A stretch of 64,000 nt of DNA from Rhizobiaceae bacterium (GTDB taxonomy: Bacteria; Pseudomonadota; Alphaproteobacteria; Rhizobiales; Rhizobiaceae). The stretch lies in NCBI GenBank assembly GCA_019635795.1, contig JAHBYV010000008.1, positions 91,602-155,601 on the forward strand, written 5' to 3'. Shown piece by piece: positions 7,164 to 64,000 of the stretch (its first letter is position 1; the number at the start of each line of letters is the position of its first letter). The notes below the pieces were generated by a model. The model was given only the letters and a program-made list of their open reading frames with translations. It did not search any database and was not told the origin of the DNA. Both the position numbers and the translations under genes were made by a program.

Positions 7164-7179
7164 ATTATTCCAGAGTTAA

Positions 7180-8208: not shown

Positions 8209-8435
8209 TCCGCCGGTTTCAACCGCAGTTGGATTGAAGACTGGCTCAAAATTCCTGACTCGCCTGAGCGGGTAACGGGTGTATTCTGTTTTTTAGCTGG
8301 AACGGATATTGAACTCCTGGGTTTAATACCTACCTAAGCCTGTTGCACGGCGCTTGCGAAGCTGCCGCTTCAGGAGGCCTGCACCGCGTTTGCCGCAGAG
8401 CGGAAATGCGGGAACAGAAAAGGAGGGGTGCTATT

Positions 8436-46984: not shown

Positions 46985-48318
46985 CACGGCGCAAACGACC
47001 GGCGCGCCAGCCATTTCCCGAGCATCTGCCGCGCGAACGCGTGGTCGAGCCAGCACCGACCGCTTGCCACTGCTGCGGCGGTCATCGGCTGCGCAAGCTG
47101 GGTGAGGATATCGCCGAGACGCTGGAGGTGGTGCCGCGGCAATGGAAGGTGATCCAACACGTGCGGGAGAAGTTCACCTGCCGCGACTGCGAGGCGATCA
47201 GCCAGGCTCCGGCGCCGTTCCACGCCACCCCACGGGGCTGGGCCGGTCCCAGCCTGCTGGCGATGATCCTGTTCGAGAAGTTCGGCCAGCATCAACCGCT
47301 CAACCGCCAGGCTGAACGCTATGCCCGCGAAGGCGTGCCGCTCAGCCTGTCGACGCTCGCCGACCAGGTCGGCGCCGGCGCTGCGGCGCTGATGCCGCTG
47401 TTCAAGCGGCTCGAAGCCCATGTGCTGGCCGCTTCACGTCTGCACGGCGACGACACGACGGTGCCGGTCCTGGCCAAAGGCAAGACCGATACCGGCCGAT
47501 TATGGACCTATGTGCGCGATGACCGACCGTTCGGCGGCGCCGATCCGCCGGCGGCGGTGTTCTATTATTCCCGCGATCGTCGAGGCGAACATCCCGCGGC
47601 GCATCTCGCCGGCTGGAGCGGCATCCTGCAGGCCGATGCCTTTGGCGGTTATGGCGATCTCTATGCGATGGATCGTCAGCCGGCGCCTGTTCTGGAAGCC
47701 AGCTGCTGGGCCCACAGCCGGCGCAAAGTGTTCGAGCTGGCCGATATCGAAGCGGCGGCGCGCAAGAAGGCGCGCGGCGACAAGCCCAACCTGGTCTATC
47801 CGCTCGCGGTTGAAGCCGTGAAGCGCATCGATGCCCTGTTCGATATCGAGCGCGAGATCAACGGCCTGTCGCCGGCCCAACGCCACGCCGTGCGCCAGGA
47901 GCGGAGCGTGCCGCTGGTCACCGAACTCGAGCGCTGGATGATCGAGACGCGCGACAAGCTCTCGCGCGGACACGATCTGAGCAAGGCCTTCAACTACATG
48001 CTGCGCCGCTGGTCGTCCTTCACCCGCTTCCTCGACGATGGCCGGATCTGCCTGTCGAACAATGCAGCCGAGCGAGCCCTGCGCGGCATCGCCCTCGGCA
48101 GAAAGTCATGGCTGTTCTGCGGTTCCGATCGCGGCGGACAGCGCGCTGCCGTTCTCTACAGCCTGATCGCCAGCGCCAAGTTGAATGACATCGACCCTCA
48201 GGCCTGGCTCGCCGATATCCTGGCGTGCATCGCGGCCCACCCAGCACAGCGGATCGATGATTTGCTGCCGTGGAATTGGCGATCCGCAAAACTGCGGACC
48301 CAACCAGCGGCGGCCTGA
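46985..48318 (+). pseudogene. IS66-family transposase TnpC, N-terminally truncated
   Basis: This frame covers the zinc-binding and catalytic portions of TnpC. CHCCGG and CRDCEAISQ supply Cys ligands. GDDTTVPVLAKGKTDTGRLW, with the family's acidic residue, HSRRKVF and LSNNAAERALRGIALGRKSWLF form the DDE-like core of the IS66 domain. The normal protein is roughly 520 residues; here about 440 remain, and the missing part lies where the integrase remnant begins. An ATG exists at 46972, but it belongs to the junction, not to the native start. It is probably inactive. Confidence 0.87.
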
Positions 48319-48702: not shown

Positions 48703-49713
48703 TTAGATTTGATCGCCAATACTCCGATCCCGCGCATAAAACGCCACGATCGGGATGATGAGAAGCCCAAAAACCGCCTGCTGCATCGCGTAGCTAAGGC
48801 CAAGCCCCACTAAGAGCGTTGTCAAAAAAGTTAGAACCAAGGTACCAACAATAGTAGAGCCGTAACCGCCCCACCCCCCCATGAGCGACGTTCCCCCGAT
48901 GACCACGGCTGCGATTGTGGTAAAAAGATAGGGGTCGCCAACTCCCACAAATCCCCCGCCCGAAAAGCCGAGGAGAGCCATGCCTGTCAGTGCTGACATA
49001 CCACCACTGATAGCATAGGCGATAAGCCACATTCGGTATTCCGAAATGAGAATACGCGACGCAGCGAGCCGATTTCCTCCCACCGCGTAGAAACTACGAC
49101 CAAATGATGTTTTCGCCATGGCCGTCACCACAATCGCAGCTACAACGATCCAGATTATGACGATTGGCGGAATGGGTAGCCCAAACGTAGTACCCGCAAT
49201 TGAGGACACATCACGAAGCCACTGCGGCACTGTTCCCAGAACCGTCCCACCATAGACCGACCCTGTACTGATCAATATCTGACAGGCTCCGACTACAGCC
49301 AACCCTACTCCCATCGTCATGATCAAACTTTGGCCCTGAATACGGAAACTCAGAACTCCGTTCAAAATGCCGACGGCGAGTCCTCCAATTAGTACAATCA
49401 AACAGGCTGGCAGCCACGGGACACCCCAATTAAGCAACGCGGCCAGTAGGATATTTGATGATCCGATCACGTAAGGTATGGACATATCGAGGCCGCCCAG
49501 TAGAGCACAAAGAGTTTGGCCTAGTGATGCGAGGCCCAGAAATGCTGCCAAAAGCAGCATCGATCTGATGTTTGCATATGATCCAAATTGCGGAACCAAG
49601 AGGGTTCCTGCAATGGATAGAAAAATAAGAAGACCGATGCCGAACAGGACGCTTCGGTTGATGCTTATTTTTTGGATGGTTGGTGTATCCTTGAGATAGT
49701 TGAACATAATCAT
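48703..49713 (-). CDS. ABC sugar-type permease (RbsC family), second copy
   Basis: The 336-residue inner membrane protein has about eight to ten predicted helices and the BPD_transp_2 features GGLDMSIPYVIGSSNILLAA and VIGGTSLMGGWGGYGSTIVGTLVLTFL. It is one of two permeases that form the membrane channel with the ATPase at 50687. The ATG at 49713 overlaps the stop of the preceding permease by 4 nt. It is the last gene of the transport run. The RbsC/XylH-like family usually imports monosaccharides, but related systems take nucleosides or autoinducers. Confidence 0.92.
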   Translation of the reverse strand: MIMFNYLKDTPTIQKISINRSVLFGIGLLIFLSIAGTLLVPQFGSYANIRSMLLLAAFLGLASLGQTLCALLGGLDMSIPYVIGSSNILLAALLNWGVPWLPACLIVLIGGLAVGILNGVLSFRIQGQSLIMTMGVGLAVVGACQILISTGSVYGGTVLGTVPQWLRDVSSIAGTTFGLPIPPIVIIWIVVAAIVVTAMAKTSFGRSFYAVGGNRLAASRILISEYRMWLIAYAISGGMSALTGMALLGFSGGGFVGVGDPYLFTTIAAVVIGGTSLMGGWGGYGSTIVGTLVLTFLTTLLVGLGLSYAMQQAVFGLLIIPIVAFYARDRSIGDQI

Positions 49714-50690
49714 TTCGTCTCCCCCGCCGGGCGACTAATCGCGCTATTTACAAGAAGCGACATTACGAGAACGACACCCGTCGACATCTGGGTGACGAAA
49801 CCTGAGACCGTTCCAAAATTGAACGTCGCTAGGACATAGCTAATAAGATAGATACATATTGAGCCAAGTATCGAACCCAGTCCGCCGCCTCGTCCGCCAG
49901 CTAGGCTCGTTCCACCTAGTACGACCGCGGTGATTGCCGATAGCGTGTAGGTGCTTCCTTGGGTCGGATCTCCAGAACCGATCAACGCAGTGTAGCAAAG
50001 TGCCGCCATTGCTGTGTAAACTCCAGCTACCGCGTGAGCTCCAAATCTCGCGCCCACTGTATTGACGCCACTAGCGAACGCCATCCTTTCTTCGCCGCCA
50101 GTCAACAAGATTTGCTGGTAGAAAGCGGTACGGGAAAAAATCGCCCACAGGACGATCATACCGCACAATACAAAAAAAACCGGCGAGAAAACGGTTGCTC
50201 CGTTCCCCCAGTCAAACATCCATTCAGGCGCAACACCTGAAGGGCGGTCTAGGATCACTAAATTGACGCCAGTCAGTACAAGGTAGGCGCTTAAAGTTAC
50301 GATAATTGGCGATACGCGGACGTAGATAATTATTGTCGCGATGATAATTTGATAAAGAACGCCAATGCCGACAAGATAGACGATTACGTAGGTCGGCGAC
50401 GAATAGCCGTACTCAACCAGCCACGCGACCAAAGTTACGTTAAGAAAGCCTAGAAGCGGACCGACAGATAGATCGACGCCGCCTCGTCCTGCCAAAACGA
50501 TTGGCGTTACAGCCAGCGACGCTAGAACTAGCGGAGCTAATACAATGATAGCGCTGCCGATACCACTGGATGAAAAAAGCTGAGGCGCTCGAAATGCAGC
50601 CACCAGAAGGAGAAATGCCGACAGGCACACCGAAGTGAGCAAGTGCTGGTTGCGAGTTAGTAAGGAGCGCGCCTTTTCATTCAAATTCAT
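49710..50690 (-). CDS. ABC sugar-type permease (RbsC family), first copy
   Basis: The 326-residue membrane protein has the family motif GGVDLSVGPLLGFLNVTL, the typical loop region with TGGEERMAFASGVNTVGARF and the conserved GGTSLAGGRGGGLGSILGSICIYL. It begins within 4 nt of the ATPase stop and overlaps the second permease. Two different permeases in one operon, as in some carbohydrate and aromatic-ring importers, suggest a heterodimeric channel. Confidence 0.92.
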   Translation of the reverse strand: MNLNEKARSLLTRNQHLLTSVCLSAFLLLVAAFRAPQLFSSSGIGSAIIVLAPLVLASLAVTPIVLAGRGGVDLSVGPLLGFLNVTLVAWLVEYGYSSPTYVIVYLVGIGVLYQIIIATIIIYVRVSPIIVTLSAYLVLTGVNLVILDRPSGVAPEWMFDWGNGATVFSPVFFVLCGMIVLWAIFSRTAFYQQILLTGGEERMAFASGVNTVGARFGAHAVAGVYTAMAALCYTALIGSGDPTQGSTYTLSAITAVVLGGTSLAGGRGGGLGSILGSICIYLISYVLATFNFGTVSGFVTQMSTGVVLVMSLLVNSAISRPAGETK

Positions 50691-52234
50691 GCGGCACCTA
50701 CGCGTTCGAATGACATTTCCGCCTCCTCCGACTCACCGAACATCGCCGCGAGAAATGCATGTTCCGAGAATCGGATAGCTGGGATTGTCCTGAAGGGAAT
50801 TCTTTGGCGGAATACAAGCACTCGATCGGCAAAGTCAAAAAAGTCTTCTATTTCGCTCGAGAGGTAAATTACCGCGCCTCCTTCATGGACGAACTCTTTG
50901 AGCTGCGTATAGAGCTCACGCTTTGTGGCAAAATCGACCCCACGTGCAGGGTCGTCGAGTACGATGATCTTCGGGCCCGCAGCGAATGCGCGTCCAATTA
51001 ATACCTTTTGCTGGTTTCCGCCGCTGAGCGATGTGATCAGATTTGAGGTTCGGCCAGTCTTGATTGATAAACGCTTGACCTCACCGTCAAACGCTCGTTG
51101 AATTTGACGACGCTTGATCCAGCCGTACTCTCCGAACGTTGACCTATAAAGTGGTAGAGCAAAGTTCTCAAAAATAGAAAGATTGGGAAAGATTCCTTCG
51201 TGCGCGCGATCACCAGAAACATACGCCACGCCGGAAGTCTTGGCATCGATTGGCGCAAAACCCAACCCTTGCGGCTTGGCCACTGAAATCGATCCAGAAT
51301 GAGAAGATATTAAGCCTGCTGCAGCGCGGATAAAGTCGGTTTGCCCTTGGCCGTCAAGACCCGCGACTCCGACAATCTCGCCAGCATGCAAGTCAAAGTC
51401 AAAGGGTGGCGCGTCTCGATCTACCCTCAGAGCCCGCGCTGAAAGCACTACACTCCCTAACTCCCGCCCTAGCATTGACTCCGCAGCCACTTTCGCATCA
51501 ATAGCGACATTCTTGCCCGACATCGACCGCAGCAGATTTGATTTAGTGATATTTTTTCCGACAAGTTCGTCCACCACTCGGCCATCGCGGAGTACGGTGG
51601 CGCGATCGGCAATCCGAACGAGTTCGGCTATGCGATGCGTGACAATGACGACACAGCACCCAACTTCCCGCGCCTTGCCAATCTCAGCGTGGAGCCGCGT
51701 GGTTGCATCCAAATCAAGAGCCGCCGACGACTCATCAAAGATCAGCAGGCGCGGATTAGACAATAGGGCACGTGCGATCACGATCCATTGCTTAACGCTC
51801 AGCGGCAATTGTTGCACTGGAGTGTTGGGATCGATATCTAGACCTGAAAACTGCTTCAGAATGCTTCGGCTTTTTTGGTTGGCTTCGGCGCGCGAACGAG
51901 CTCGCTTCCACAAGCTGTCTGCGCCAGCGAAAATATTGTCCGCAACGCTCAACGTTTCAGCAACCAGGATCTCTTGAAATATCGTCGCGACACCGAGAGC
52001 TCGGGCGTGCATAGGATCCCGGGGACTTTCTCCGAAAGTCGTCACAAGGCCAGAGTCCGGCCGCAGCACGCCCGACATTGTTTTCGCTAGGGTAGATTTT
52101 CCGCTGCCGTTTTCGCCGACTATCGCATGTACTTCGCCGGGGCTGATCGTCAAGCTGACGTCGTCGAGAGCTATCGTCTCGCCGAAGCGTTTGACCACAC
52201 GACTTATCTGGACTTGGTTTTGAGTGTCCGACAT
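50687..52234 (-). CDS. Two-domain ABC ATPase (RbsA-like)
   Basis: This cytoplasmic protein has two ATP-binding halves. The first has Walker A VGENGSGKSTLAKTM near residue 40, a signature region near QQLPLSVKQWIVIARAL and Walker B LLIFDESSAALD. The second has a degenerate Walker A region near GLDGQGQTDFIRA and the signature LSGGNQQKVLIGRAF, followed by IIVLDDPARGVDFATK. This split is usual for sugar importers. The ATG at 52234 is preceded by GGAAG and gives about 515 residues; the ATG at 52252 is less likely. The stop overlaps the first permease. Confidence 0.93.
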   Translation of the reverse strand: MSDTQNQVQISRVVKRFGETIALDDVSLTISPGEVHAIVGENGSGKSTLAKTMSGVLRPDSGLVTTFGESPRDPMHARALGVATIFQEILVAETLSVADNIFAGADSLWKRARSRAEANQKSRSILKQFSGLDIDPNTPVQQLPLSVKQWIVIARALLSNPRLLIFDESSAALDLDATTRLHAEIGKAREVGCCVVIVTHRIAELVRIADRATVLRDGRVVDELVGKNITKSNLLRSMSGKNVAIDAKVAAESMLGRELGSVVLSARALRVDRDAPPFDFDLHAGEIVGVAGLDGQGQTDFIRAAAGLISSHSGSISVAKPQGLGFAPIDAKTSGVAYVSGDRAHEGIFPNLSIFENFALPLYRSTFGEYGWIKRRQIQRAFDGEVKRLSIKTGRTSNLITSLSGGNQQKVLIGRAFAAGPKIIVLDDPARGVDFATKRELYTQLKEFVHEGGAVIYLSSEIEDFFDFADRVLVFRQRIPFRTIPAIRFSEHAFLAAMFGESEEAEMSFERVGAA

Positions 52235-52276
52235 TGAGTTACAAACTTCCATGTTCGCGGCGTCTCAACGGAAAAG

Positions 52277-52323: not shown

Positions 52324-53490
52324 TTAGTTCTGCGGCTTCCAGGTCAAAGGATCACTTGGCCGGGCGAAAACCTGGTTCGCTAGAGAGTTGGGAAACCAAT
52401 CCTCGGCTTTCGGTTCCAGCCATCTTTGATCGTCGATTTTACAATCTTCCGGAAGTTGAGAATTGTTCTCTTCGAGCGTGTACTTCATAACTTGGCGAGC
52501 GATTGTCTGTATCTTTGGGCCCTGTCCCTGCAGGACACGCAATGCCGCATTCCATCCAAAATAAATCTCGGACGCTGGCGGATAAAGATAAAATCCAACA
52601 TCAGCAATTTCGGGATGTTCCTTCCAATAGCAGGCAGCGCCGAATTCTCCTTGTAGACTGATCGGGGGCACCGGTCGGCCGGACTGCAGCAAAGCTTGGA
52701 TCACGCCGATCTCTGATGGCGACTGAAGCACGATACCATCAACAGTTTCCGGATGCGTCGCTAGAAACTTCTGCACTTCGACCTGTGCAATCTGATCAGT
52801 CCAATTTCCCTGCACGGTACCAATCAACTTAATGTCCGGATGTTCGGCGATGGCCTTCAGTGCTCCGGTGTCGAAACTATCCGACGTGTTTAGCCCCGCG
52901 ATTCCACTCACGTACAAGAGGTTGCCTTTGCCCCCCATTTTTTCGATGACACTCTTTGCAATTTGATATCCGCCATCGACAAAGTTCGGCGTGACACTGA
53001 GAGCCTCAGGGGCAGTTACAAAACCATCGTAAGAAATGACCGGAACGCCTTTATCATAGGCATACTTGATCGACTGATTCAGCGCGGTCGGGTTTGAACA
53101 ACATAGAATAATGATATCCACTCCCTGATCAACAAGTTGACGAATTTGCTGGATTTGCACGGCATCCTTGAGATCGGACTGTGTGATAACAATATCCTTG
53201 ACCAATCCAGCTTCTTTGGCCTCTGGTACGAGAACGTTCATTAGACGATCCATCGCTGCCGCGCGCCAGGTATTCCCAGCATAAGAACTCGCAAAGCCGA
53301 TAGTCCACGGCGGGCCTTTTTTGGGTTTGAAGTCGCTTAGCATACTAGCTCCTACCGGTGTTTTGGGATCTAAGCCTTCGTATGCTTTCTGTATATCTGG
53401 CGGAAGCTCCTGAAGTACCTCGGCGCGCGCCAGCATTGTTGTGAATAACGCAACCACAGCCACGGCACATATAGTCAATAAAGCTTTCAT
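52324..53490 (-). CDS. Periplasmic substrate-binding protein, sugar-binding (RbsB/Peripla_BP_4-like)
   Basis: A signal peptide (about residues 1-23, ending ARA) precedes a periplasmic-binding-protein fold: IGFASSYAGNTWRAAAMDRLMN, then DIIILCCSNPTALNQSIKYAYDKGVPVISYDGF. A long C-terminal region includes EIYFGWNAALRVLQGQGPKIQ. The fold is of the ribose/galactose class, but at 388 residues it is longer than RbsB. It feeds the ABC ATPase and permeases downstream. The ligand cannot be read from sequence; the company of the cluster suggests a nitrogen-containing or cyclic compound rather than a simple sugar. Confidence 0.9.
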   Translation of the reverse strand: MKALLTICAVAVVALFTTMLARAEVLQELPPDIQKAYEGLDPKTPVGASMLSDFKPKKGPPWTIGFASSYAGNTWRAAAMDRLMNVLVPEAKEAGLVKDIVITQSDLKDAVQIQQIRQLVDQGVDIIILCCSNPTALNQSIKYAYDKGVPVISYDGFVTAPEALSVTPNFVDGGYQIAKSVIEKMGGKGNLLYVSGIAGLNTSDSFDTGALKAIAEHPDIKLIGTVQGNWTDQIAQVEVQKFLATHPETVDGIVLQSPSEIGVIQALLQSGRPVPPISLQGEFGAACYWKEHPEIADVGFYLYPPASEIYFGWNAALRVLQGQGPKIQTIARQVMKYTLEENNSQLPEDCKIDDQRWLEPKAEDWFPNSLANQVFARPSDPLTWKPQN

Positions 53491-53614: not shown

Positions 53615-54058
53615 CTATATTTGGCCGTGTGGCTTGTTAGATCTACCATCTGACGCAACCGGGTTTTGAACGAGCGCGATCGCGTCAACTTCTAAGAGCG
53701 CGCCAGGAACAAGAAGGCTCGGAACGCCTACGGTCGTGCTTGCTGTGAATCGCTTTGTAAATTTCTCGCCCCTAACCTTGCTGTATGCAGCGTAGTCCTT
53801 GAAATCCGTACAGTAGCACGTGAGTTTCACTACATCGTCCAGCGATGCCCCGGCCACATGGAGTATCTTTTCGATGTTTTCAAAAATGCATCGCGCCTGC
53901 GCTTCCATGTCTTCAGGACCTACCAAAGCTCCGTTGGCATCGACTGGAAGTTGCCCGGAAACGTAGAGTGTGCTGCCCACACAAACACCCGGCACAAAGG
54001 AAAGCCCGTCGTCCCAAGGCCAACCCGGATCGATCACACGAATACTGTTCATAGACAT
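53615..54058 (-). CDS. RidA-family (YjgF/YER057c/UK114) protein
   Basis: The 147-residue protein has the RidA trimer fold: ASGQLPVDANG-like VSGQLPVDANGALVGPEDMEAQARCIFENIEKIL, and the C-terminal GVPSLLVPGALLEVDAIALVQ with a conserved loop. RidA proteins hydrolyse reactive enamine/imine intermediates from amino acid breakdown, and cluster-borne members are often specialised deaminases. The usual catalytic Arg near the C-terminus is not obvious, so activity is unproven. The ATG at 54058 has a strong GGGAGGGAAGG. Two palindromic operators lie 40-90 nt upstream, placing it first in the transport unit. Confidence 0.87.
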   Translation of the reverse strand: MSMNSIRVIDPGWPWDDGLSFVPGVCVGSTLYVSGQLPVDANGALVGPEDMEAQARCIFENIEKILHVAGASLDDVVKLTCYCTDFKDYAAYSKVRGEKFTKRFTASTTVGVPSLLVPGALLEVDAIALVQNPVASDGRSNKPHGQI

Positions 54059-54097: not shown

Positions 54098-54109
54098 GCA
54101 TACGTATGC
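54098..54109. promoter_or_regulatory. Palindromic operator 1 upstream of the ridA/transport genes
   Basis: GCATACGTATGC is a perfect 12-bp palindrome 40 nt upstream of the RidA-type start. The same sequence occurs at 62609-62620 and 62641-62652 upstream of the enzyme genes. It is a probable binding site for the LacI-type regulator in the cluster. Confidence 0.8.
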
Positions 54110-54131
54110 ATGTTTGTTCAATGTGTTTGTT

Positions 54132-54143
54132 GCATACGTATTC
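54132..54143. promoter_or_regulatory. Palindromic operator 2 upstream of the ridA/transport genes
   Basis: GCATACGTATTC matches the 12-bp operator at 11 of 12 positions. Its centre lies 34 bp from operator 1, about three helical turns, fitting cooperative binding of one regulator to two sites. Confidence 0.75.
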
Positions 54144-54316
54144 ATTGATCGTTAGCAAGGATCGGTTTTCCTGTCCAGCGTCATGTTATTTTTTTTCTGG
54201 CGAGCTACTATTGGTGATTGCGTGTTGTGGTGTTGTTCACGTGGGGAAATGCAATTCAGAACGCCGCGCGGTACCAACGAAGATCGCCTGTCTAATCAGC
54301 TATTTTTGGCGCTATG

Positions 54317-55411
54317 TCAGGCTGAGGCGATTTGAGATTTTCTCTGTCGTTTGGTGGAAAGACGAGCGGATTTCCGAAGTACAATGGTACCAGGCAGGAC
54401 CACATTTGCAGGCTTGCGTTTTGGATCAGAAATTCGCTCAGAAAGAAGCCTTAATGCTTCATCAATCATCTCACTGACTGGCTGTCGAAACGTGGTAAGG
54501 GAATAGCTTGGCCAAGCTGCGGTTCCAATGTCGTCAAAACCGATAACCGATACGTCTTTTGGTACATTGAGCCCAAGTTCGATTCGAAGGGCGTCCAACA
54601 CGCCAAGCGCCATGATGTCGTTGGCTGCAAAGATGCTGTCCGGTGGATACTTATTTTCGAAAAGAGATCGAGCTGCGTCCACACCGCCCTGATAAGTAAA
54701 ATCCCCATTCGCAATGAGAGGTTCCTTTCCGGTCCGAGCAAGTACTACCTCTCTAAACCCGCGCTCGCGCTCAACGCTGGTGGAAGCGCCTGCCAAACCA
54801 GCGACAAACGCGGGCCGACGATGTCCAGAATCTAGAAGAAGATTGGCCAGAAATTTGCCCGCCGAAAAATTGTCACATGAGACCGTATCTACGGGAGCAG
54901 ACCGAATCGTACGGTTGATTAGCACCACAGGAGAATACGTCTTTAGCGAGAGTTCAGCGATCGAAATTCCAGGAAGCGCCGACGCTATAATTATTCCGTC
55001 GACTTGGTATTTCAAAACCCCTGAAATTGCCAAATCGATCGGCTCGTCACGTGAAATGTTGAACAGAACGACCCGCTGACCAACAGTTTGTAGTTTTTTC
55101 GAGAGCGTGTCGAGAATCTCTGGATAGAAGGGGTTAGTTATGTCCCCCACCACCAGCGCAATCATTCCAGTCCGGCGAGTGATCAAGCTCCGCGCATGAA
55201 TGTTAGGCACATAGTTTATGGCTTCAGCAGCTCTTAGAATCTTTTCACGTGTCTCGGGCGCGACTTTTCCACCGTCGGTGAAGGCTCGCGAGACAGCGCT
55301 CTGCGAAACTCCCGCTGCTCGAGCCACATCCCTAGACGTTGGCTTGCTGTGCACTACTAGCTCTTGCCTGGATAATTTCTTTACCAGAGTTGGTCCGTTT
55401 TTTTTATTCAT
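54317..55411 (-). CDS. LacI-family transcriptional regulator
   Basis: The regulator has an N-terminal LacI helix-turn-helix (SRDVARAAGVSQSAVSRAFTDGGKVAPETREKIL, about residues 26-60) and hinge, then a periplasmic-binding-protein-like effector domain with VVGDITNPFYPEILDTLSK and the LacI-typical GFDDIGTAAWPSYSLTTFRQP. The ATG at 55411 gives 364 residues; the open frame to 55585 adds a non-homologous extension. It lies between the enzyme and transport genes on the same strand and probably binds the four GCATACGTATGC sites, repressing until the substrate or a catabolite is present. Confidence 0.92.
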   Translation of the reverse strand: MNKKNGPTLVKKLSRQELVVHSKPTSRDVARAAGVSQSAVSRAFTDGGKVAPETREKILRAAEAINYVPNIHARSLITRRTGMIALVVGDITNPFYPEILDTLSKKLQTVGQRVVLFNISRDEPIDLAISGVLKYQVDGIIIASALPGISIAELSLKTYSPVVLINRTIRSAPVDTVSCDNFSAGKFLANLLLDSGHRRPAFVAGLAGASTSVERERGFREVVLARTGKEPLIANGDFTYQGGVDAARSLFENKYPPDSIFAANDIMALGVLDALRIELGLNVPKDVSVIGFDDIGTAAWPSYSLTTFRQPVSEMIDEALRLLSERISDPKRKPANVVLPGTIVLRKSARLSTKRQRKSQIASA

Positions 55412-55708
55412 AACTTCTAGCGCCGCCCAGTGTATACACTGACGAACTCGTCGCAGGCGGCACTCCCTACCGTCAAGTGTGTCCGCATTTCGGTACTGCC
55501 GCATCCCCTCGGTTAATGCGCAGTGTTTCCCGCAACCATGCGAGAGCGCAAGGGATATTTCGATGACAGCTGACCAAATAAACACGATCAGTTGGATTCA
55601 AACAGCACGGATCTGATCGAGCGAGTTACGCCTGTAATCTGCAAACACCCAGTTTCTCTGAAGCAAGCATCAAAGTATCTGTCCTCGCTTTGTCCGCATG
55701 ACGAACAT
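55412..55708. other. Spacer between the SDR and LacI genes
   Basis: This 297-nt gap has no gene and no copy of the palindromic operator. It presumably holds the promoter of the regulator gene, but no clear sigma-70 elements stand out. Confidence 0.4.
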
Positions 55709-56473
55709 TCACTCTGCCGTCCAACCGCCATCCAAGAGAAGCGCAGCACCAGTCATAAGCGCGGACGCATCAGACGCAAGAAATACGATCGCACCTGATA
55801 TATCCTCTACTTGTCCAAGGCGACCGAGCTTTATCTTGGAGAGGACATCCTGACGGAACTTCTCATCTTCAAAAAAGGGTCTCGTCATAGGCGTCTCTAC
55901 GAAGGTTGGGCCGATCGTATTAACTCGAATTCCCGATGGACCGAGTTCAATTGCCATAGCTTTGGTAAGACCCTCGATGGCATGTTTTGAAGCACAGTAA
56001 ACACTGCGCCGCGCTGCGCCGACGTGTCCCATTTGAGATGACATGTTGATGATCGAGCCACGACGGCCAGCAGCAATCATCTGCTGAGCGACCTTCTGAG
56101 CAACAAAAAAAGCGCCCTTCACGTTCAAGCCAATAATCGCGTCGAAGTCGCTCGTAGTAACGTCAACAAAGGCCGCAGGGCGATTTGTTCCCGCGTTATT
56201 GACCAGAATGTCGAAAGGCTCACACGAGTTAAGTGCCAGTTGCACCCCTTCGGTATCTGCGACGTCAAGGGCAAGTGGCCGCGCAGTGTTACCGGTAGCA
56301 TTGATGGCCTCAGCAGCGGATGTGATCTCATCCAGACTCCTGGCGGCTAGTGTCACGTCCGCTCCAGCCTGTGCAAGCGCCGTCGCCGCGGCCAAGCCAA
56401 TTCCTCGGCCCGCACCAGTGACGAGCGCGCGCTTGCCGTCCAACCGAAACGACGATTGCCGAGGTAGTGTCAT
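55709..56473 (-). CDS. Short-chain dehydrogenase/reductase (SDR family)
   Basis: This 254-residue cytoplasmic oxidoreductase has the cofactor motif [10 protein letters not shown] (residues 19-28), NNAG in [14 protein letters not shown] and the catalytic Ser-Tyr-Lys set in [32 protein letters not shown] after the third strand favours the classical SDR type. It probably oxidises a hydroxyl group of a catabolic intermediate. Its ATG at 56473 overlaps the HisD-like stop by 4 nt, so it is coupled to that gene. The substrate is unknown. Confidence 0.92.
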
Positions 56474-57801
56474 TCCAAGGTTTTCCGTCTCATGGAAAGA
56501 GCCGGCTGTGCATACCCGACATTTTGCCCTCCGTACCTGCGAACTCGCACGTTGGCTTGCTCGGCATGCCCAGCGAACCCTTCGAGCAACGATAACCTAG
56601 AACAGTATTCTCCGATCAGTGCGCTAGCCTCATTGGTCGCGATTCTTTGGAACGTGCATGTTTTTAGAAACTTTCCGACCCACAATCCGCCAGTGTACCG
56701 GGCGGCCTTTTTCGTTGGCAGCGTATGATTGGTTCCGATGACCTTATCACCGAAGGCAACGTTTGTTCTTGCACCCAAAAACAACGCCCCATAGTTAGTC
56801 AAATTATGCAAAAAATAATCTGGAGCAGATGTCATGACTTGTACATGTTCAGACGCAATCCGATCGGCTTCGAGCAGCATCTCGTCTATACTGTCGCAGA
56901 CAATTACCTCGCCATAATCAGTCCAAGATTTCCGCGCGGAATCTGCTGTAGGCAAAATAGCGAGAAGGCGGTCAATTTCCTCCATCGTGTCAGCTGCTAA
57001 CTTTTGCGATGTTGTAAGCAGGATTGCTGGAGAGTTTGGACCATGCTCCGCCTGGCCAAGTAGATCGGTCGCGCAAATCTCTGCGTCTGAAGTCTCATCG
57101 GCGATGACGAGCGTTTCTGTGGGACCCGCCAATAGATCAATTCCAATCCGTCCAAATAGTTGCCGTTTAGCCTCCGCCACGTATGCGTTACCCGGACCTA
57201 CGATCATGTCTACAGGCGCGATGCTTTCCGTTCCTATGGCCATTGCAGCCACAGCTTGCACCCCGCCTAGAACATAGATTTCGGTGGCTCCGCCAAAATG
57301 CATGGCCGCCACTATCGCCGGATGTGGACCGCCCTTGAAGGGAGGAGCACAGCCGATAATCCGCTTAACCCCTGCTACACTGGCGGTGACAATAGACATA
57401 TGAGCTGACGCAACCATAGGATATCTGCCGCCTGGAACATAGCAACCTACGCTATTCACAGGAATATGGCGATGCCCGAGAAAAACCCCCGGCAAAGTCT
57501 CGACCTCTACATCAACTAAGCTCGCACGCTGCTTTTCAGCAAAGTTGCGCACCTGTGTTTGTGCGAATTTGATGTCTTCGAGATCTTCTTTGGCCACTTT
57601 GGCGATGGCATCGTAAATTTCCGCTTCACTTAGTCGAAAGGATTCGGGGGCCCAGTTGTCAAATCGTTGCGATAATTCCCTTATCGCCTGATCGCCTTCC
57701 GCTTCGACGCTGGAAATAATTGTCTCCACCGTGCTTTTCACCTTAGTGTCAGCAGCTTTGACGTCAACTGCGTCCATACCTCGTTTAAGATAGCGAACCA
57801 T
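56470..57801 (-). CDS. Histidinol-dehydrogenase-family enzyme (catabolic paralogue)
   Basis: The protein is homologous to HisD, which oxidises an alcohol to a carboxylate in two NAD-dependent steps. Zinc and catalytic positions are retained: QAEHGPNS (Gln and His), ASEHVQVM (Glu-His), [11 protein letters not shown] (Asp) and [15 protein letters not shown] (His). The segment [22 protein letters not shown] differs from biosynthetic HisD and resembles catabolic paralogues such as HpsN-type enzymes. The ATG at 57801 gives 443 residues, the usual length. Its place in a catabolic cluster argues against a role in histidine synthesis. The alcohol substrate is unknown. Confidence 0.87.
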
Positions 57802-58071
57802 TTTAGTAGTCACTCCCGATGAGTTAAGAGACCTATCTTGATGGCGCGATTGGGTGTGGCGTGTCAGCGTGTGCTCGGATGTCCCGAATTCTACGGCTGA
57901 CTCGTGTCGGATATCGAACACGTCGCAAGCTGCTTCCGCGCAATCTGATTGAGTGCATCCACATTTGCCAAGGGTACGAGTAGCGCGCATTCAACCGGCC
58001 AACTGTTGATTGGCTTGAACACGTTCCACTCGCCCCGTCGGTGTAGTTTAACCGGTTAGCTTTGCACGGGA
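57802..58071. other. Spacer between the HyuB-like and HisD-like genes
   Basis: This 270-nt gap contains no supported gene. An open frame continues upstream from the HisD-like gene to 57990, but it reads as basic low-quality sequence. No copy of the GCATACGTATGC operator is present, so the genes downstream may depend on readthrough from the promoter near 62,600 or on a separate promoter not recognised here. Confidence 0.4.
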
Positions 58072-60351
58072 TCATTTAACACTAAGCTGCTTGTCCCATA
58101 CCGGCTCACTGCTAGCCAAGATGACCTCTGTCTCGACTTGTGTCGCGCAAGACGGGCAAAAGTATTGGCGAAACTGCATTTCCGGATCTATAAATAGCTT
58201 TGGATCAACCAGCAGTGGATTGGCCTGCTGAATATGGTTGTCCTTCCTAACAAGAGATAGCTTGTAGTTTTTTGCGGCTGACCCGTGAACACGCCCGCAG
58301 CCGGAGCATGCGACATCATTTTCTTTGTTAAGAACAAGATGACGACTAATTTGCCTTGCGCCTCGGTCCGTTACGTTTTTCGCTCGCGATTTGACTTGGT
58401 TCGAGCCAATGCGTTCTGATCGAATCTGTTCGCGCTTTTGCTCCGTCGCGGCTACGTCAACAGAACCTTCTCGTAAAACGACGCCGTAAACCGTCTCTGC
58501 TATCTTCCCAGAAACGGCGTCGTTCAAGATATCTACGAGCACCTTTGCTGGATCTCGGTCAAGAGGATCACCGTAACCACCGCCGCCACTCCAAGTATGC
58601 TCAAATACGTCTTGCGGATTCTCCAACGTTTCGCATTTGACCGGTAGGTATTCGATCTCGCCGTTTAAGGAGGAGAGGTCTGTTGGGATTTCGCCACGTG
58701 CGAACCATTTTTCGACATCGGAGTTGCGAACCATCTTAAACATTGATGAGTTCGCAGGATAACCGCCATCAACGCCAAATGCTGTGGGGAATGCTTGCCC
58801 AAAAGTCGCGACTACGAGTTCAATCGATCGACCATCAGTATCGTGAGGTATCCAGCATGACGTGGCACCCATCCCGCCGCGAAACTCTCCAGGCCCCCCG
58901 GAATCTTTCGTCTCCCGTCTATACAAATAGAGAATTGGATAGAACCCTTCGTTGGTTTCAACGTTTGGACACTGACCTGTAATGGCGGCCATAAGGCCTG
59001 CAGTATCGACACCATCGGCAAAGGTGCGCGCTCCCCAGCCACCTGCCATGCAATCCATGATCATAGTCACGAACGGAAGCTTGTTATTATCGAGCCCTGA
59101 CGTAATTACGGTTGTCCAGGACCCAACACAGCCCGCTAGGAGGCGATCCTGTAGATCGGGCGCACTTGCAAGCATTCGCGACACGCAATTGTTCGCTGCG
59201 TTTGTTGCGGACCAGGTACCAGCGATTGATCCCATCGAAACCCCGTGGGGGAACTCTGCATTGATAATGGTTCCAACAGGTGTTTTGAACTTCAGGGCTC
59301 TGTGAATACCACCTAACGCCCATGGGATGTCAAAACAGAGAAGCGGGAGGATCGCAACTGTCGAGCCCCCGACTGCGCCTGCTCGGGTGCAGTTGATCAT
59401 CCCGACATTTGGATCGGAACCAGAGAAATCGAACTCGAGTGTGTCGTCCTTCTTGGTGACTGCAAGCGCTGTTTTATAAACGCCTCGATCTCCGCTCTTC
59501 GCCACCTCTTGGTACGTTTCACACCGCCAAGTTCCATCAGGAATCTCGCGCAGGCGGTCACGAAACCGTTGCTCTGCATAGTCCATTTGCTTTTTCATAA
59601 CGACGTTGATTGTTTTTGCGCCGTAACGCTCAATCAGCTCCAGTACACGCTGCTTAGCAACGTTGTTAGAGGCGATATGAGCGCGCAGATCCAGACCAAC
59701 CAACGCGGGTGCACGTGACCGGCGCAGGTACACCTCCTCGACATCTTTGCGTATGTTTCCTGCCTCGACGATTTTGATCGGTGGGTAGGCCATACCTTCA
59801 GAAAAATGGTTGTCAGCGTCTACACACCATGACCCGACGTTCACGCCACCCAGATCAACCTCATGGATCGTAGATCCAGTCCAAGCGAACAGCTCGTCAC
59901 CAACAAAGATCGGCGAAAGAACTGCAACGTCTTGAGGGTGAAGAGCGCCTACCCACGGATCGTTACAAAGAAACATATCGTCGGGATTTATCCCTGGATT
60001 GTCGCTACGGTGGACGACCGTCCATTTGACCATGAAGTCGACGTTCGACGCGTGAGGTAGATAGTACGGACCGATATTGATGATATCCCCCAGCTCATCA
60101 CAAAGCACGACGTTGAAGTCGTTGGCATCGGTGGCAACAGGCGAACCGGATATCTTTTTTAGCGCTTGGCCCTGCTCATCGTTGATCTGCCATAATTTGT
60201 GGGCGACTACCTCGAATGTAATCGGGTCAACTTTATGTGTCTCATCATAAGAAAACAACTTTAGCTTCGGAGAAATGGATTTCGGGTCTGGACGCTTTCC
60301 ATCCGAGAAGAAGTGTCCCGATCCGGGAATCTTGAGAAGAGATTTTGCCAT
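58072..60351 (-). CDS. Hydantoinase B/acetone-carboxylase alpha-like subunit with C-terminal zinc-ribbon
   Basis: The 759-residue protein belongs to the HyuB/oxoprolinase family: DPITFEVVAHKLWQINDEQG near residue 40, DMFLCNDPWVGALHPQDVAVLSPIF, and SGGGGYGDPLDRDP around residue 585. It pairs with the HyuA-like subunit encoded 6 nt upstream. Unlike plain HyuB (about 550-600 residues) it continues for about 150 residues, including CSGCGRVHG near 681-690 and CPSCATQVE near 730, a CXXC pair likely to bind zinc. This resembles the gamma subunit of acetone carboxylase fused to the alpha-type chain. The reaction may be ATP-dependent hydrolysis or carboxylation of a cyclic amide or ketone. Confidence 0.9.
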   Translation of the reverse strand: MAKSLLKIPGSGHFFSDGKRPDPKSISPKLKLFSYDETHKVDPITFEVVAHKLWQINDEQGQALKKISGSPVATDANDFNVVLCDELGDIINIGPYYLPHASNVDFMVKWTVVHRSDNPGINPDDMFLCNDPWVGALHPQDVAVLSPIFVGDELFAWTGSTIHEVDLGGVNVGSWCVDADNHFSEGMAYPPIKIVEAGNIRKDVEEVYLRRSRAPALVGLDLRAHIASNNVAKQRVLELIERYGAKTINVVMKKQMDYAEQRFRDRLREIPDGTWRCETYQEVAKSGDRGVYKTALAVTKKDDTLEFDFSGSDPNVGMINCTRAGAVGGSTVAILPLLCFDIPWALGGIHRALKFKTPVGTIINAEFPHGVSMGSIAGTWSATNAANNCVSRMLASAPDLQDRLLAGCVGSWTTVITSGLDNNKLPFVTMIMDCMAGGWGARTFADGVDTAGLMAAITGQCPNVETNEGFYPILYLYRRETKDSGGPGEFRGGMGATSCWIPHDTDGRSIELVVATFGQAFPTAFGVDGGYPANSSMFKMVRNSDVEKWFARGEIPTDLSSLNGEIEYLPVKCETLENPQDVFEHTWSGGGGYGDPLDRDPAKVLVDILNDAVSGKIAETVYGVVLREGSVDVAATEQKREQIRSERIGSNQVKSRAKNVTDRGARQISRHLVLNKENDVACSGCGRVHGSAAKNYKLSLVRKDNHIQQANPLLVDPKLFIDPEMQFRQYFCPSCATQVETEVILASSEPVWDKQLSVK

Positions 60352-60357
60352 GATAAC

Positions 60358-62430
60358 TCACCCTTGCGTAATGCGGACGTTTCCGAAGCCATCGATCTTT
60401 GCTCGTTGGCCGGGATGAATAAGTCCAGTAGTGGTGTCAAAACGGATAATCGCTGGGCCTTCGATCAGCATCCCGGCCTTGAGCCCGTCGCCATAAATAC
60501 CTGTTTCTACTTCTGCTCCAACTTCCCGCCAATAGATCATCTCTTTGCCAATTCTGGCAGGCACCGAATCTGCACTTCCTATTTTTGCTTCTTTTAGCGA
60601 CGCATCCTGAATGTGCATTGAGCCAATGACACGGTAGGTAACCAACTCTACACCCGCTTCACGAAAACCAGATCCTCGGCCGAATAGCTTCTCGTACCGC
60701 ATTTCGAATTCCTCGATGACGCCGTCTAGAACGGCAGTAGTCAGCTTGCCCGCCGGCACATTCGCGTCAACCTGGTGGACCTGCCCTTTGTAACGCAGCT
60801 CAACGACCCGCTTGAGTTCCACGTTAGAGCGTTTAGCTCCACCCGCTGTTAGCTTCTCGATCGCTTCTTTTTCTAGGCGCTCAAAGTCGGCAGTGAACTT
60901 ATCCGGATCAAACGGCGCAAGTGTAAGATCCGACTGCTGGGTCATGGTTGATACGTCGGAGACCGCCAACCCAAGAGCCGAGAACGCCGAGGAAATATTT
61001 CCTAGAGGGAAAATTACCTCCTGAACGCCGAGTTCTCTGCCAAACGCACCGCTATGGAGAGGGCCTGCGCCACCGAATCCATAGACAACGAAGTCGCGGG
61101 GATCATAACCGCGCTCGATCGTCATTTTGCGTATCAAATCAGACATGTGCTGATTGACGATTTCGACTATACCGCTCGCGGCGTCGCGCACACTCATGCC
61201 CAAGGGCCGCGCAATCTTTTCTTCGATAGCCTTCTCCGCAAGAGTACGGTCGAGCTTGAACTTTCCCCCCAGAAAATAGTTGGGGTCGATGTAACCGAGC
61301 ACAAGGTCGGCATCGGTTACCGTTGGGTCTTGACCTCCGCGCCCATAACATGCGGGGCCTGGATCCGCCCCGGCGCTTTTAGGTCCCACCCGAAGGCGAT
61401 CCATATCCACCCACGCAATAGAACCGCCGCCGGCGCCGATGGAAACGATATCGATAGTTGGGGCCAGCAACGTATACTGGTTAACGGTCGAGGATGACGT
61501 GATGATCGGCTTACCGTCAACGACAAGGCCGACGTCGAAGCTGGTACCGCCTACGTCGGCAGCGATGATGTTTTTCTGCCCGAGAAGGTTTCCAAGAAAC
61601 GAGGTGGCTACGACCCCGCCAGCAGGGCCTGAAGCAAGGGTATTAACTGACCGACGCTCAGCATCTGCGGCTCTCATCGATCCGCCCATCGACTGCATGA
61701 CGTACAGTGGCGACCGCAAACCGTTCTCGTGCAGTGCATTCGTCAGCTCGGTGAGATAGGTAGTCAGTAGCGGAGCGACATAGGCATTAACGGCCGTAGT
61801 TGCAGACCGCTCATACTCGTTAACCGCAGGAGCAATCTCGCTCGAGATCGATATGTGGATGTGTGGCGCCATTTCCTCGATAATTTCCCGCATGCGCCGC
61901 TCATGAAGAGGATGCTTAAAAGACCAAAGAAAGCAGACACCAATCGCTTCAACTCCTTGGACAAGGAGGTCTTTCACAGCCTGGCGGGCGCTGTCCTCGT
62001 TAAACGGGACTACTACTCTGCCCTTATAATCGATCCTCTCATGCACTTCCTTGATCAGACTTTTGGTCACAATGGGCGCTGGCTTGTCGCAGTAAGTATA
62101 TTGCTTTAAGTCGATTTCCGATCGGCCGGCGGAGCGGCCAATAATCCTCATAATGGGAAGAGCATCTCTATGCCCGGCCGTCGTTATAAAACCGATCTTT
62201 ACACCGTTGAGGTTGATCATCGCATTGGTTGCGACGGTCGTACCATGGTAGAAACAATCCAATGTCGAAAGAACGTTTCTGCCTTTGTCCACCGCCTCAA
62301 CTACATCTAGAACACCTTTTGAGAAATTTGGGGGTGTCGATGGCCGCTTTGCTATTTCAACCTGCCCATCGTCACGCAAATAGACCAAGTCGGTGAATGT
62401 CCCACCGGTATCTACTCCAATTGAACTCAT
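60358..62430 (-). CDS. Hydantoinase A/acetone-carboxylase beta-like ATP-dependent subunit
   Basis: This 690-residue protein has the ATP-binding signatures of the HyuA/oxoprolinase family: IGVDTGGTFTDLVY at the N-terminus, HGTTVATNAMI near residue 63, a central ADVGGTSFDVGLV and SIGAGGGSIAWVD, and later FGGAGPLHSGAFGRELG. It phosphorylates or activates its substrate together with the HyuB-like subunit. It is the first gene of the enzyme run, starting 178 nt downstream of the palindromic operators. Known relatives handle hydantoins, 5-oxoproline, acetone and acetophenone, so the family alone does not fix the substrate. Confidence 0.93.
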   Translation of the reverse strand: MSSIGVDTGGTFTDLVYLRDDGQVEIAKRPSTPPNFSKGVLDVVEAVDKGRNVLSTLDCFYHGTTVATNAMINLNGVKIGFITTAGHRDALPIMRIIGRSAGRSEIDLKQYTYCDKPAPIVTKSLIKEVHERIDYKGRVVVPFNEDSARQAVKDLLVQGVEAIGVCFLWSFKHPLHERRMREIIEEMAPHIHISISSEIAPAVNEYERSATTAVNAYVAPLLTTYLTELTNALHENGLRSPLYVMQSMGGSMRAADAERRSVNTLASGPAGGVVATSFLGNLLGQKNIIAADVGGTSFDVGLVVDGKPIITSSSTVNQYTLLAPTIDIVSIGAGGGSIAWVDMDRLRVGPKSAGADPGPACYGRGGQDPTVTDADLVLGYIDPNYFLGGKFKLDRTLAEKAIEEKIARPLGMSVRDAASGIVEIVNQHMSDLIRKMTIERGYDPRDFVVYGFGGAGPLHSGAFGRELGVQEVIFPLGNISSAFSALGLAVSDVSTMTQQSDLTLAPFDPDKFTADFERLEKEAIEKLTAGGAKRSNVELKRVVELRYKGQVHQVDANVPAGKLTTAVLDGVIEEFEMRYEKLFGRGSGFREAGVELVTYRVIGSMHIQDASLKEAKIGSADSVPARIGKEMIYWREVGAEVETGIYGDGLKAGMLIEGPAIIRFDTTTGLIHPGQRAKIDGFGNVRITQG

Positions 62431-62608
62431 ATTTTCCTCCTAGTTTCCGGTACGACTTACTGCTTGAGTGTAAAGTGGTGCATTTTTTCGAACGGTCCCC
62501 CTCTGCAATGTTCTGGAGCACCTCACGGCAACTCTGAGCGTGAAAAGGCTTTGGTGCGGCAAAAGCCGTCACCACCGCCTCGCATGGTTCACCAGATCCT
62601 TATTTGAC
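62431..62608. other. Leader between the operators and the HyuA-like gene
   Basis: A 178-nt stretch separates the operators from the HyuA-like start at 62430. No gene is supported in it; the rest is unremarkable leader sequence with no clear terminator or riboswitch pattern. Confidence 0.4.
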
Positions 62609-62620
62609 GCATACGTATGC
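62609..62620. promoter_or_regulatory. Palindromic operator 3 upstream of the HyuA-like gene
   Basis: A perfect GCATACGTATGC palindrome, identical to operator 1 at 54098. It lies 32 bp centre to centre from operator 4, about three helical turns. Confidence 0.82.
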
Positions 62621-62637
62621 AAGCGAAATTACATTGC

Positions 62638-62655
62638 CGTGCATACGTATGCACG
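62638..62655. promoter_or_regulatory. Palindromic operator 4 (18-bp perfect palindrome)
   Basis: CGTGCATACGTATGCACG is a perfect 18-bp palindrome that contains the 12-bp core shared with the other sites. As the best match it is probably the strongest site for the LacI-type regulator encoded at 54317-55411. Confidence 0.85.
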
Positions 62656-62892
62656 ATCTATAGCAAGTATGCTTCTGTCTGTCCAGCGGGCCTACATTTT
62701 TTTGTCTACCATAGTGTGTGGTCCCTAATAGATCAGCGAATGCGCTTTGCTCGCGCTGTTTGATCTCTGCGAGCAATGAGGGCTAAGCTGCTCGTATTTT
62801 CAACAATATGAAGTGCTTGGATCTGGTGATCCGGGCTGAGCGTTAAAATCCTTCGGCGTTGTACTAGTTTCAGTTTTCGTCGACCCCCATAT

Positions 62893-63480: not shown

Positions 63481-64000
63481 ATGGGTGTATATGATTTATC
63501 CACCATCAGTGACCTAGATGCAATTTCTCCACTGGAAACATTTCTTTCTGAAATTTCTAATCCTAATACCAGGGCAGCATATCATCAGGCCTGTACAGCT
63601 TTTATTCATTGGCTTGAGACGATAGGACAAAACCCGCTCCGGGTACGGTCAATACACATTGCGACGTGGCGTGAGTTGGTTCAACGACGACATTCCGTCG
63701 CAACCACCAAGCTCTATCTGGCAGCGCTTCGCACCTTCTTCGACTGGATGTGCGAGCAAAACCTTATCCCACTTAATCCAGCTCGCGCTGTTAAAAGCCC
63801 GAAAGAGGTCATTGCAGTCGGCAAAACCAGTTTTCTTGAGCCTGCTGAGACCCGCATGTTGCTTGCATCGCTACAGGGAGAACAACCAATCGACCTGCGT
63901 GATCGCGCTTTGATCGGGCTTATGCTGTTTACATTTGCTCGTATCGGTGCAGCACTCAGATTGAACTGTGATGATCTGGTTCGACGCGGTGGATCGACAT
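63481..64000 (+). CDS. Tyrosine recombinase (XerC/D-like), 5' part, runs off window
   Basis: From the ATG at 63481 the frame stays open to the end of the window (about 173 residues). The N-terminal SAM-like core-binding domain is visible (LETFLSEISNPNTRAAYHQACTAF-like, then LAALRTFFDWMCEQNLIPLNPAR). The catalytic domain begins RDRALIGLMLFTFARIGAALRLN, where the Arg in FARI is the expected first catalytic residue. The C-terminal part with the tyrosine is outside the window. It is probably the recombinase of the next mobile segment. Fragment only, so integrity is unknown. Confidence 0.87.
   Translation, partial: MGVYDLSTISDLDAISPLETFLSEISNPNTRAAYHQACTAFIHWLETIGQNPLRVRSIHIATWRELVQRRHSVATTKLYLAALRTFFDWMCEQNLIPLNPARAVKSPKEVIAVGKTSFLEPAETRMLLASLQGEQPIDLRDRALIGLMLFTFARIGAALRLNCDDLVRRGGST

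Follow-up and report, generated by a model that had tools for sequence, protein, structure and literature searches.

A probable LacI-type regulon with a putative two-gene ketone carboxylase in a Rhizobiaceae bacterium

Gene runs and operators

We analyzed a 64,000-nucleotide stretch of a Rhizobiaceae bacterium genome (assembly GCA_019635795.1, contig JAHBYV010000008.1, positions 91,602 to 155,601), hereafter the window, which contains two runs of genes on the minus strand. The HyuA run encodes HyuA- and HyuB-like subunits, a HisD-like dehydrogenase, a short-chain dehydrogenase/reductase (SDR) and a LacI-family regulator. The RidA run encodes a RidA-family protein followed by the binding protein, ATPase and two permeases of an ABC transporter. 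A pair of copies of the palindrome GCATACGTATGC lies upstream of each run. We consider it very probable that both runs belong to a LacI-type regulon that joins uptake to breakdown. The features are:

62681..62686, minus strand: putative -35 of the HyuA promoter, CTGGAC, common to the RidA promoter
62658..62663, minus strand: putative -10 of the HyuA promoter, CTATAG, spacer 17 nucleotides (nt)
62641..62652: operator 1 of the HyuA run, GCATACGTATGC; GTGCATACGTATGCAC is a perfect 16-mer palindrome
62609..62620: operator 2 of the HyuA run, GCATACGTATGC
60358..62430, minus strand: HyuA-like alpha subunit, 690 amino acids, ATP-binding ASKHA-type; motifs DTGGTFTD, DVGGT and GADPGP readable
58072..60351, minus strand: HyuB-like beta subunit, 759 amino acids; metal tetrad Asp78/His138/Asp141/His163
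58072..58389, minus strand: C-terminal gamma-type zinc domain fused to HyuB; Cys682, 685, 732 and 735; PF08882
56470..57801, minus strand: HisD-like zinc dehydrogenase, 443 amino acids; third subgroup by motif
55709..56473, minus strand: SDR dehydrogenase, 254 amino acids; 4-nt overlap with the HisD end
54317..55411, minus strand: LacI-family regulator, 364 amino acids; helix GVSQSAVSR; PF00356 and Peripla_BP_3
54173..54178, minus strand: putative -35 of the RidA promoter, CTGGAC
54150..54155, minus strand: putative -10 of the RidA promoter, CTAACG, spacer 17 nt; weak consensus match
54132..54143: operator 1 of the RidA run, one mismatch, GCATACGTATTC
54098..54109: operator 2 of the RidA run, GCATACGTATGC
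53615..54058, minus strand: RidA-family protein, 147 amino acids; Ser at the canonical Arg position
52324..53490, minus strand: periplasmic binding protein, Peripla_BP_4, CUT2 type
50687..52252, minus strand: two-domain ABC ATPase, CUT2 type
49710..50690, minus strand: permease A
48703..49713, minus strand: permease B

A scan of the window recovered the three exact copies and the one-mismatch copy, which bears out the four palindromes in two close pairs, upstream of two minus-strand runs, of an earlier reading of this DNA (the original prediction). Two more matches with two mismatches lie at 41023 and at 53374, the latter within the binding-protein gene. At up to two mismatches the window therefore holds six matches, against a shuffle mean of 2.05; one of 100 shuffles reached six. 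This count is only mildly unusual by itself, and the weight rests on the exact copies. Across the 3,256,896-base genome the exact 12-mer has three copies, every one at this locus, against about 0.18 copies expected from a composition estimate; its reversed control had no match in the genome.

The upstream regions of the two runs align with each other, each with CTGGAC, 17 nt, CTATAG or CTAACG, and then an operator pair with a start-to-start distance of 32 or 34 bp. Both regions also contain AAAAAAAT, CGCTGGACAG, CTTGCTA and GATC at matched spacing, a resemblance absent from the original prediction. The -35 and -10 calls follow what we take to be the alphaproteobacterial promoter consensus; neither putative promoter was listed by a generic sigma-70 scan. 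Five or six bases separate the -10-like hexamer from the beginning of the first operator, a placement that would suit repression. A further palindrome, CAGTGTATACACTG, is found at 55427-55442, directly upstream of the LacI start.

With refined starts for RidA (54058), LacI (55411) and the HisD-like gene (57801), the distance to the nearer operator is about 40 nt for RidA and about 180 nt for HyuA, which starts at 62430. The LacI gene is the last of the HyuA run and lies between the two runs, where the original prediction had put it. With gaps of 270 nt (HyuB to HisD-like) and 297 nt (SDR to LacI), the HyuA run may be one transcript or more than one.

LacI helix and palindrome type across related loci

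A survey of LacI-family regulons describes, in its available text, the even palindrome with CG at its center as the norm for the family (PMC4052901). The window sites are of this kind and lie upstream of the runs they would control.

We fetched 18 loci of the order that carry a HisD-like gene of the same subgroup as the window's (described below); nine have a LacI gene near HisD. Where the LacI helix is GVSQSAVSR or near (L155, L164, L167, L168 and L009), TTGCATACGTATGCAA-like intergenic sites with at most two mismatches were present at four of five loci, or five of six with the window included. LacI proteins with the helix SVSTVSR go with GTGAGAACGTTCTCAC-like palindromes at three of four loci (L151:9808, L151:13464, L154:10161, L154:13828 and L152:10196); at the fourth, L159, neither this palindrome nor the window's was found at the cut-off used. 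The SIATVSR protein of L163 goes with TTGGAAACGTTTCCAA-like palindromes (L163:9834 and L163:13474), and L096, whose LacI has another helix, with GTGCAAACGGTTGCAC. In the sequences compared, palindrome type tracks LacI helix type. Window-type matches with two mismatches also occur at loci with other helices: in L152 one falls within the LacI gene, and in L154 one precedes the ATPase by about 210 nt. Another occurs at L158, where no LacI gene was found.

The nine LacI loci come from eight genomes. A 16-mer pattern from these sites, allowed one mismatch, was found in three of them, at four places, all at the HisD locus; the pattern was derived from sites in three of those eight genomes. A slightly wider 16-mer, which misses the window's own sites with their different outer bases, matched 26 of 397 genomes of the order, and its reversed control two of 397. 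Comparison of two tables placed the site within about 10 kb of the subgroup HisD in 17 of the 26, including two genomes (G145 and G280) that had helped to shape the pattern. Seven site-bearing loci were fetched; six contain a LacI gene, and all six of these have the SQSAVSR helix.

Several observations weigh against a tight link between site, regulator and pathway. L155 has the SQSAVSR helix together with the palindrome TTGAATGCGCATTCAC, which differs at four of 12 core positions. Nine of the 26 site-bearing genomes have no subgroup HisD beside the site: five (G032, G254, G172, G103 and G134) carry it at some other place or contig, and the scan at E 1e-110 lists none for the remaining four (G245, G238, G092 and G371). 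One of the six fetched loci with a LacI gene, L198, pairs an SQSAVSR-type regulator gene with a perfect TTGCATACGTATGCAA (6917-8260) beside pckA- and aldolase-like genes in place of HisD. This setting resembles central carbon metabolism, so the pairing of helix and operator extends beyond this pathway. Finally, the closest orthologous cluster, L008/L061, keeps the enzymes and lacks the window palindrome. It has a different pair, TTATCGTACGATAA at 1938 with a two-mismatch copy at 1910, between HisD and a permease and upstream of the transporter. This pair (L008:1910-1951) repeats the layout with another sequence and probably serves a different regulator.

Such a case raises the alternative that the window palindromes serve another regulator and that the nearby LacI protein has a different target, particularly as a GntR gene lies further along the L008/L061 contig. 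Since helix type predicts palindrome type across loci, and the sites have the form usual for the LacI family, we regard this as highly unlikely. The sites are conserved with the regulator in other genomes, L155 being an exception and L008 having the enzymes without the site.

The original prediction named orthologous clusters without the palindromes as evidence against it, and this was found in part. The exact 12-mer is absent from both L008 and the second close cluster, L009. L009 has a LacI gene (47% identity) and two 10-of-12 matches, one upstream of HisD and one upstream of the transporter-HyuAB run: GCATCCGCATGC at 1712 and GAATACGAATGC at 3849, for which 10 and 19 of 5000 gap shuffles, respectively, reached two mismatches. 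The 1712 gap was chosen after the match had been seen, so the shuffle figures are not blind. The 1712 site may be an internal one, as it separates SDR from HisD, the next gene in the direction of transcription. A pattern made from both L009 sites matched five places in its 3.5-Mb genome, three of them elsewhere.

Carboxylase or hydrolase

HyuA and HyuB match the hydantoinase/oxoprolinase Pfam families, which upholds their description as a HyuA/HyuB-like ATP-dependent enzyme. HyuB also passes PF08882 (29.7 bits, cut-off 21). A profile of ten gamma domains, taken from the window, two orthologues, and haloarchaeal and other gamma genes, was searched against the PDB; the best chains were 5l9w_C (E 1.1e-13) and 5m45_C (E 1.2e-7). 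The first is an acetophenone carboxylase beta chain, which we take to be the gamma of the PMC5214803 naming, and the second an acetone carboxylase gamma; apart from these and another acetone carboxylase gamma, no chain was below 0.2. The four cysteines are invariant in the aligned domains.

The HyuB tree contained 57 sequences, namely 53 locus cores and four solved references, deduplicated and with those of fewer than 400 aligned residues dropped; the gamma label in this and the HyuA tree rests on a six-seed profile. The split, with support of 0.98-1.0, set all 21 gamma-bearing cores on the side of the acetone and acetophenone carboxylases and all 32 gamma-less cores on that of N-methylhydantoinase and caprolactamase. 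Four further, distant HyuB relatives (39-41%) have a fused gamma domain too. In the available text of PMC5214803, gamma is present in the acetophenone (Apc) and acetone (Acx) carboxylases and in none of the hydantoinase (Hyd) complexes. Taken together, the domain and the tree make it likely that HyuA and HyuB-gamma are a two-gene ketone carboxylase.

Like Acx and Apc, the window enzyme would have alpha and beta subunits, a metal site in beta and a four-cysteine gamma zinc domain, and it falls on their side of the HyuB tree, although the two locus sequences nearest the acetone carboxylase reference in grouping are only about 28% identical to it. The acxABC or apcABCD(E) layout is not present: the window has two genes, with gamma fused to beta and no alpha-prime or epsilon gene, and they are linked to LacI, HisD, SDR and sugar-type ABC transporter genes. 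The beta-gamma fusion in a two-gene layout makes it a variant rather than a plain Acx or Apc. CapAB caprolactamase, hydantoinase and 5-oxoprolinase resemble it in family, two-gene layout and alpha motifs. They have two subunits without gamma, as far as the available text of PMC5214803 describes them, whereas the window HyuB has the gamma domain and groups apart from them.

Other findings count against this assignment or limit it. The HyuA tree (64 sequences, deduplicated, those under 380 aligned residues dropped) has the same layout, and its split of the gamma-bearing side has a weak support of 0.618; it includes fragments and copies, with fragments tagged 'none' though they come from the same loci. 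Among NCBIfam models, HyuA scores 582.9 bits with caprolactamase alpha and 433.6 with acetophenone carboxylase subunit-gamma, all below the cut-offs. The latter model corresponds to alpha in the naming of PMC5214803, to judge from its available text. The Asp-His-Asp-His tetrad is also found in caprolactamase, according to the available part of PMC8453981, and since it occurs in hydrolases too it does not discriminate. The available text of PMC5214803 states that the branches are not told apart by any substrate-site consensus, so the carboxylase assignment rests on gamma and phylogeny and not on active-site residues. The same text describes gamma as apparently dispensable for core integrity, and the gamma zinc of the Xanthobacter autotrophicus acetone carboxylase is thought to be non-catalytic (PMC5543143, in its available part). 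Of the mapped gamma-bearing loci, only three have HisD next to the carboxylase: those of the window, G144 and G399.

In places, the contexts of other gamma-bearing enzymes fit ketone or alcohol chemistry. Butanediol dehydrogenase and 2-oxo-acid dehydrogenase genes occur at a Haladaptatus plasmid locus, CoA ligase and acetoacetate-decarboxylase-family genes at a Haloterrigena locus, and SDR and CoA ligase genes at a Rhodococcus locus. A Mycobacterium branderi plasmid has the enzyme amid cytochrome P450 genes, and the best plasmid match, from Natronosalvus, has RidA, LLM and SDR-type genes in its neighborhood. Sampled genes annotated as 'hydantoinase/oxoprolinase' could be sorted into carboxylases and hydrolases by the gamma domain, fused or adjacent, which would avoid an annotation trap.

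RidA, the transporter and the hydrolase alternative

Canonical RidA imine deaminases have a catalytic arginine. The alignment shows Ser in its place in the window RidA, which is not canonical in this respect. RidA-family proteins without the arginine (Ser or Asn, by eye) are encoded at 53615-54058, L008:13443-13925 and L009:16457-16852; in L008 and L009 a second RidA copy keeps it.

Relatives of the binding protein (46-56%) occur in 19 other genomes of the 397, with varied gene sets that include gamma-less HyuAB (L093), caprolactamase-type genes (L094) and alpha/beta-hydrolase clusters (partly by eye). The L008 and L009 transporters belong to another branch, with 35-36% identity for the ATPase and no match for the binding protein at 1e-8; as they are not orthologous, the imported compound may differ. 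With both the contexts and the branch varying, the imported compound is not readable from the transporter. The neighbors of HyuAB, HisD and transporter orthologues were likewise too varied to name a substrate; these context maps use our own picks of open reading frames and include some spurious frames. A second HyuAB pair was seen at L094:11096-15191 (G144), inside a transporter-related operon (binding protein 47%, ATPase 50%); its HyuB groups with caprolactamase.

These neighborhoods bear on the leaning of the original prediction, in which HyuA/HyuB would be an ATP-dependent lactam or hydantoin hydrolase that opens a cyclic amide, with the nitrogen passed to RidA and the carbon to the SDR and HisD-like enzymes. 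The caprolactamase alpha model is the best NCBIfam match of HyuA, HyuAB genes of caprolactamase type or otherwise without gamma contain or adjoin transporter orthologues in G144 (L094) and G181 (L093), and L008 and L009 carry amidohydrolase, LLM monooxygenase and RidA genes. Against this stand the gamma zinc domain, the carboxylase-side placement of HyuB, the RidA without its canonical Arg, and the ten genes of the window runs, among which there is no aminotransferase or amidohydrolase. We judge a hydrolase unlikely and prefer the ketone carboxylase; in the substrate panel first proposed (lactams, hydantoins, ketones and sugars), ketones are accordingly a better bet than lactams or hydantoins.

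The HisD-like and SDR dehydrogenases

Both dehydrogenases are present downstream of HyuAB as claimed, and the HisD-like one can be assigned more closely. It aligns over its full length with HpsN of C. pinatubonensis, its closest solved relative (396.8 bits), and the two proteins match in position at the Gln-His motif, the Glu-His motif and the Asp. It has its fold family in common with HpsN and HisD, and the zinc ligands, catalytic Glu-His and Asp can be aligned with both. In the available text of PMC11382572 the substrate-recognition loop is GRY[A/S]H in HpsN, with the sulfonate-binding His126, and GSAPL in HisD. The loop of the window protein is GRYPM, and its final residue is Met or Leu in every one of the 20 distinct relatives compared; the table has 21 rows because L008 and L061 hold a single gene. 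Judged by the published motifs, the protein is of a third subgroup, neither a histidinol nor a sulfopropanediol dehydrogenase. As a histidinol dehydrogenase it was rejected for its lack of GSAPL and its closer relation to HpsN; as HpsN, for its lack of GRY[A/S]H and of the sulfonate-binding His.

If the HisD-like protein were HpsN, the cluster would degrade a C3 sulfonate, 2,3-dihydroxypropane-1-sulfonate (DHPS). The solved structure closest to it suggests as much, and the loop, with Met or Leu throughout the relatives, makes this extremely unlikely.

HisD-like matches at E 1e-110 or better are found in 125 of the 397 genomes. By hand count about 79 form a close group of at least 600 bits, the next match having 437 bits. 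An SDR 54-70% identical to the window's is encoded at 11 of 20 other loci (L008/L061 counted once), usually directly beside HisD, and a 41% relative at two more. HisD, SDR, LacI and ABC genes recur together across loci of the order. The best reading is that the regulator, HisD, SDR and transporter genes represent a version of a module found widely, to which a ketone carboxylase has been added here; this part is therefore not unique. The regulator-palindrome pairing supports the single LacI regulon first proposed. A common HisD-family subgroup for which we found no name, linked across the order to a LacI operator, could direct inducer and substrate screens.

Distribution and mobility

Close HyuB orthologues were found at two loci, L008 (79%) and L009 (74%), by a search that finds close relatives only; all scans together gave only these two other loci above 70% identity. 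In the order scan G144 alone was as close (HyuB 79%), the next matches being at 44-47%. The class scan (385 genomes, E limit 1e-130) gave no HyuB match above 41% besides the window's own genome, and the best match in two other genomes of the genus was 31%. All 926 plasmid records with a HyuB match were below 60%, the best row at 45%.

The flanks (46307-48318 and 63481-64000), where G+C is lower than upstream, contain a recombinase fragment, an IS66-like transposase and a second tyrosine-recombinase-like gene (by eye), and the end of the window is the end of the contig. The cluster has a G+C content of 0.51-0.54, compared with 0.54-0.59 in the rest of the window, and two genus-mates are without it. 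It was likely acquired recently and horizontally on a mobile stretch.

The IS66-like transposase gene is 385 nt beyond permease B. The island might thus be a remnant in which the insertion sequence removed downstream genes, leaving a dead pathway with its operators. Besides the transposase and the flanking recombinase genes, two comparisons fit a loss: an aldehyde-dehydrogenase-like gene (by eye) lies near the end of the related transporter operon in L089 and L092, and most accessory genes of L008 and L009 are missing from the window cluster. All ten frames of the two runs are open at full length, six have a clear purine-rich ribosome-binding site (by eye), and the operators are almost perfectly kept; we consider a remnant improbable.

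Proposed function

Without an inducer, the LacI-type protein would occupy the two operators just downstream of each promoter and repress both runs. Because its gene ends the HyuA run, it would probably control its own expression as well. The compound taken up, or an intermediate, would release it. The CUT2-type ABC transporter would import a small hydroxylated compound, and the SDR would oxidize a secondary alcohol to a ketone. HyuA and HyuB-gamma would carboxylate the ketone at the expense of ATP, via a phosphoenol and carboxyphosphate, to a beta-keto acid. The HisD-like enzyme would take a primary alcohol to a carboxylate in a four-electron NAD-dependent step, and RidA may have an accessory, probably non-canonical, role.

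We put the probability of the overall reading, a horizontally acquired, LacI-controlled regulon with a ketone carboxylase for an alcohol- or sugar-like compound, at roughly two in three. More tentatively, it could be a new route for a sugar- or polyol-like compound, with oxidation to a (hydroxy)ketone, ATP-dependent carboxylation by a two-gene enzyme with built-in gamma, and a HisD-family dehydrogenase of a third kind that forms an acid, all under one LacI repressor. If true, ketone carboxylation would extend beyond acetone-like and aromatic ketones and operate inside a repressor-controlled module of the sugar-utilization type.

Local sugar-utilization regulons of the LacI family, as treated in the available text of PMC4052901, have the same even central-CG palindrome, a regulator encoded with its targets, and ABC uptake and catabolic genes; the window differs in that its targets include a ketone carboxylase. 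The main text of that survey has neither 'histidinol' nor 'hydantoinase'. The locus would be a variation on kinds already known, namely local LacI regulons, ketone carboxylases and dehydrogenases of the HisD family. As originally stated, no characterized pathway with this exact gene set turned up; among the literature matches listed, mostly without subscription papers, we found no description of the set, and one may exist.

Other clusters with the HisD subgroup

A recurrent cluster (L195, L196, L197, L200, L201, L164, L167 and L168) combines a CUT1-like ABC layout (by eye) with the subgroup HisD, an SDR and an SQSAVSR LacI. Most members also have SnoaL-like, cupin, cobalamin-independent methionine-synthase-like and alpha/beta-hydrolase genes, and there are up to four operators. 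Gene calls rest on Pfam for L164 and on similarity for the others; no named function was found for this cluster. LacI is just upstream in L200, and a second HisD paralogue is present in L195 and L201. The subgroup HisD was also seen beside cyclase-family genes (L061; L157 and L158 by eye) and beside polysaccharide-deacetylase-like genes (L009:16881-17756; L157). It is present in small genomes of 1.3-1.4 Mb (L157 and L158).

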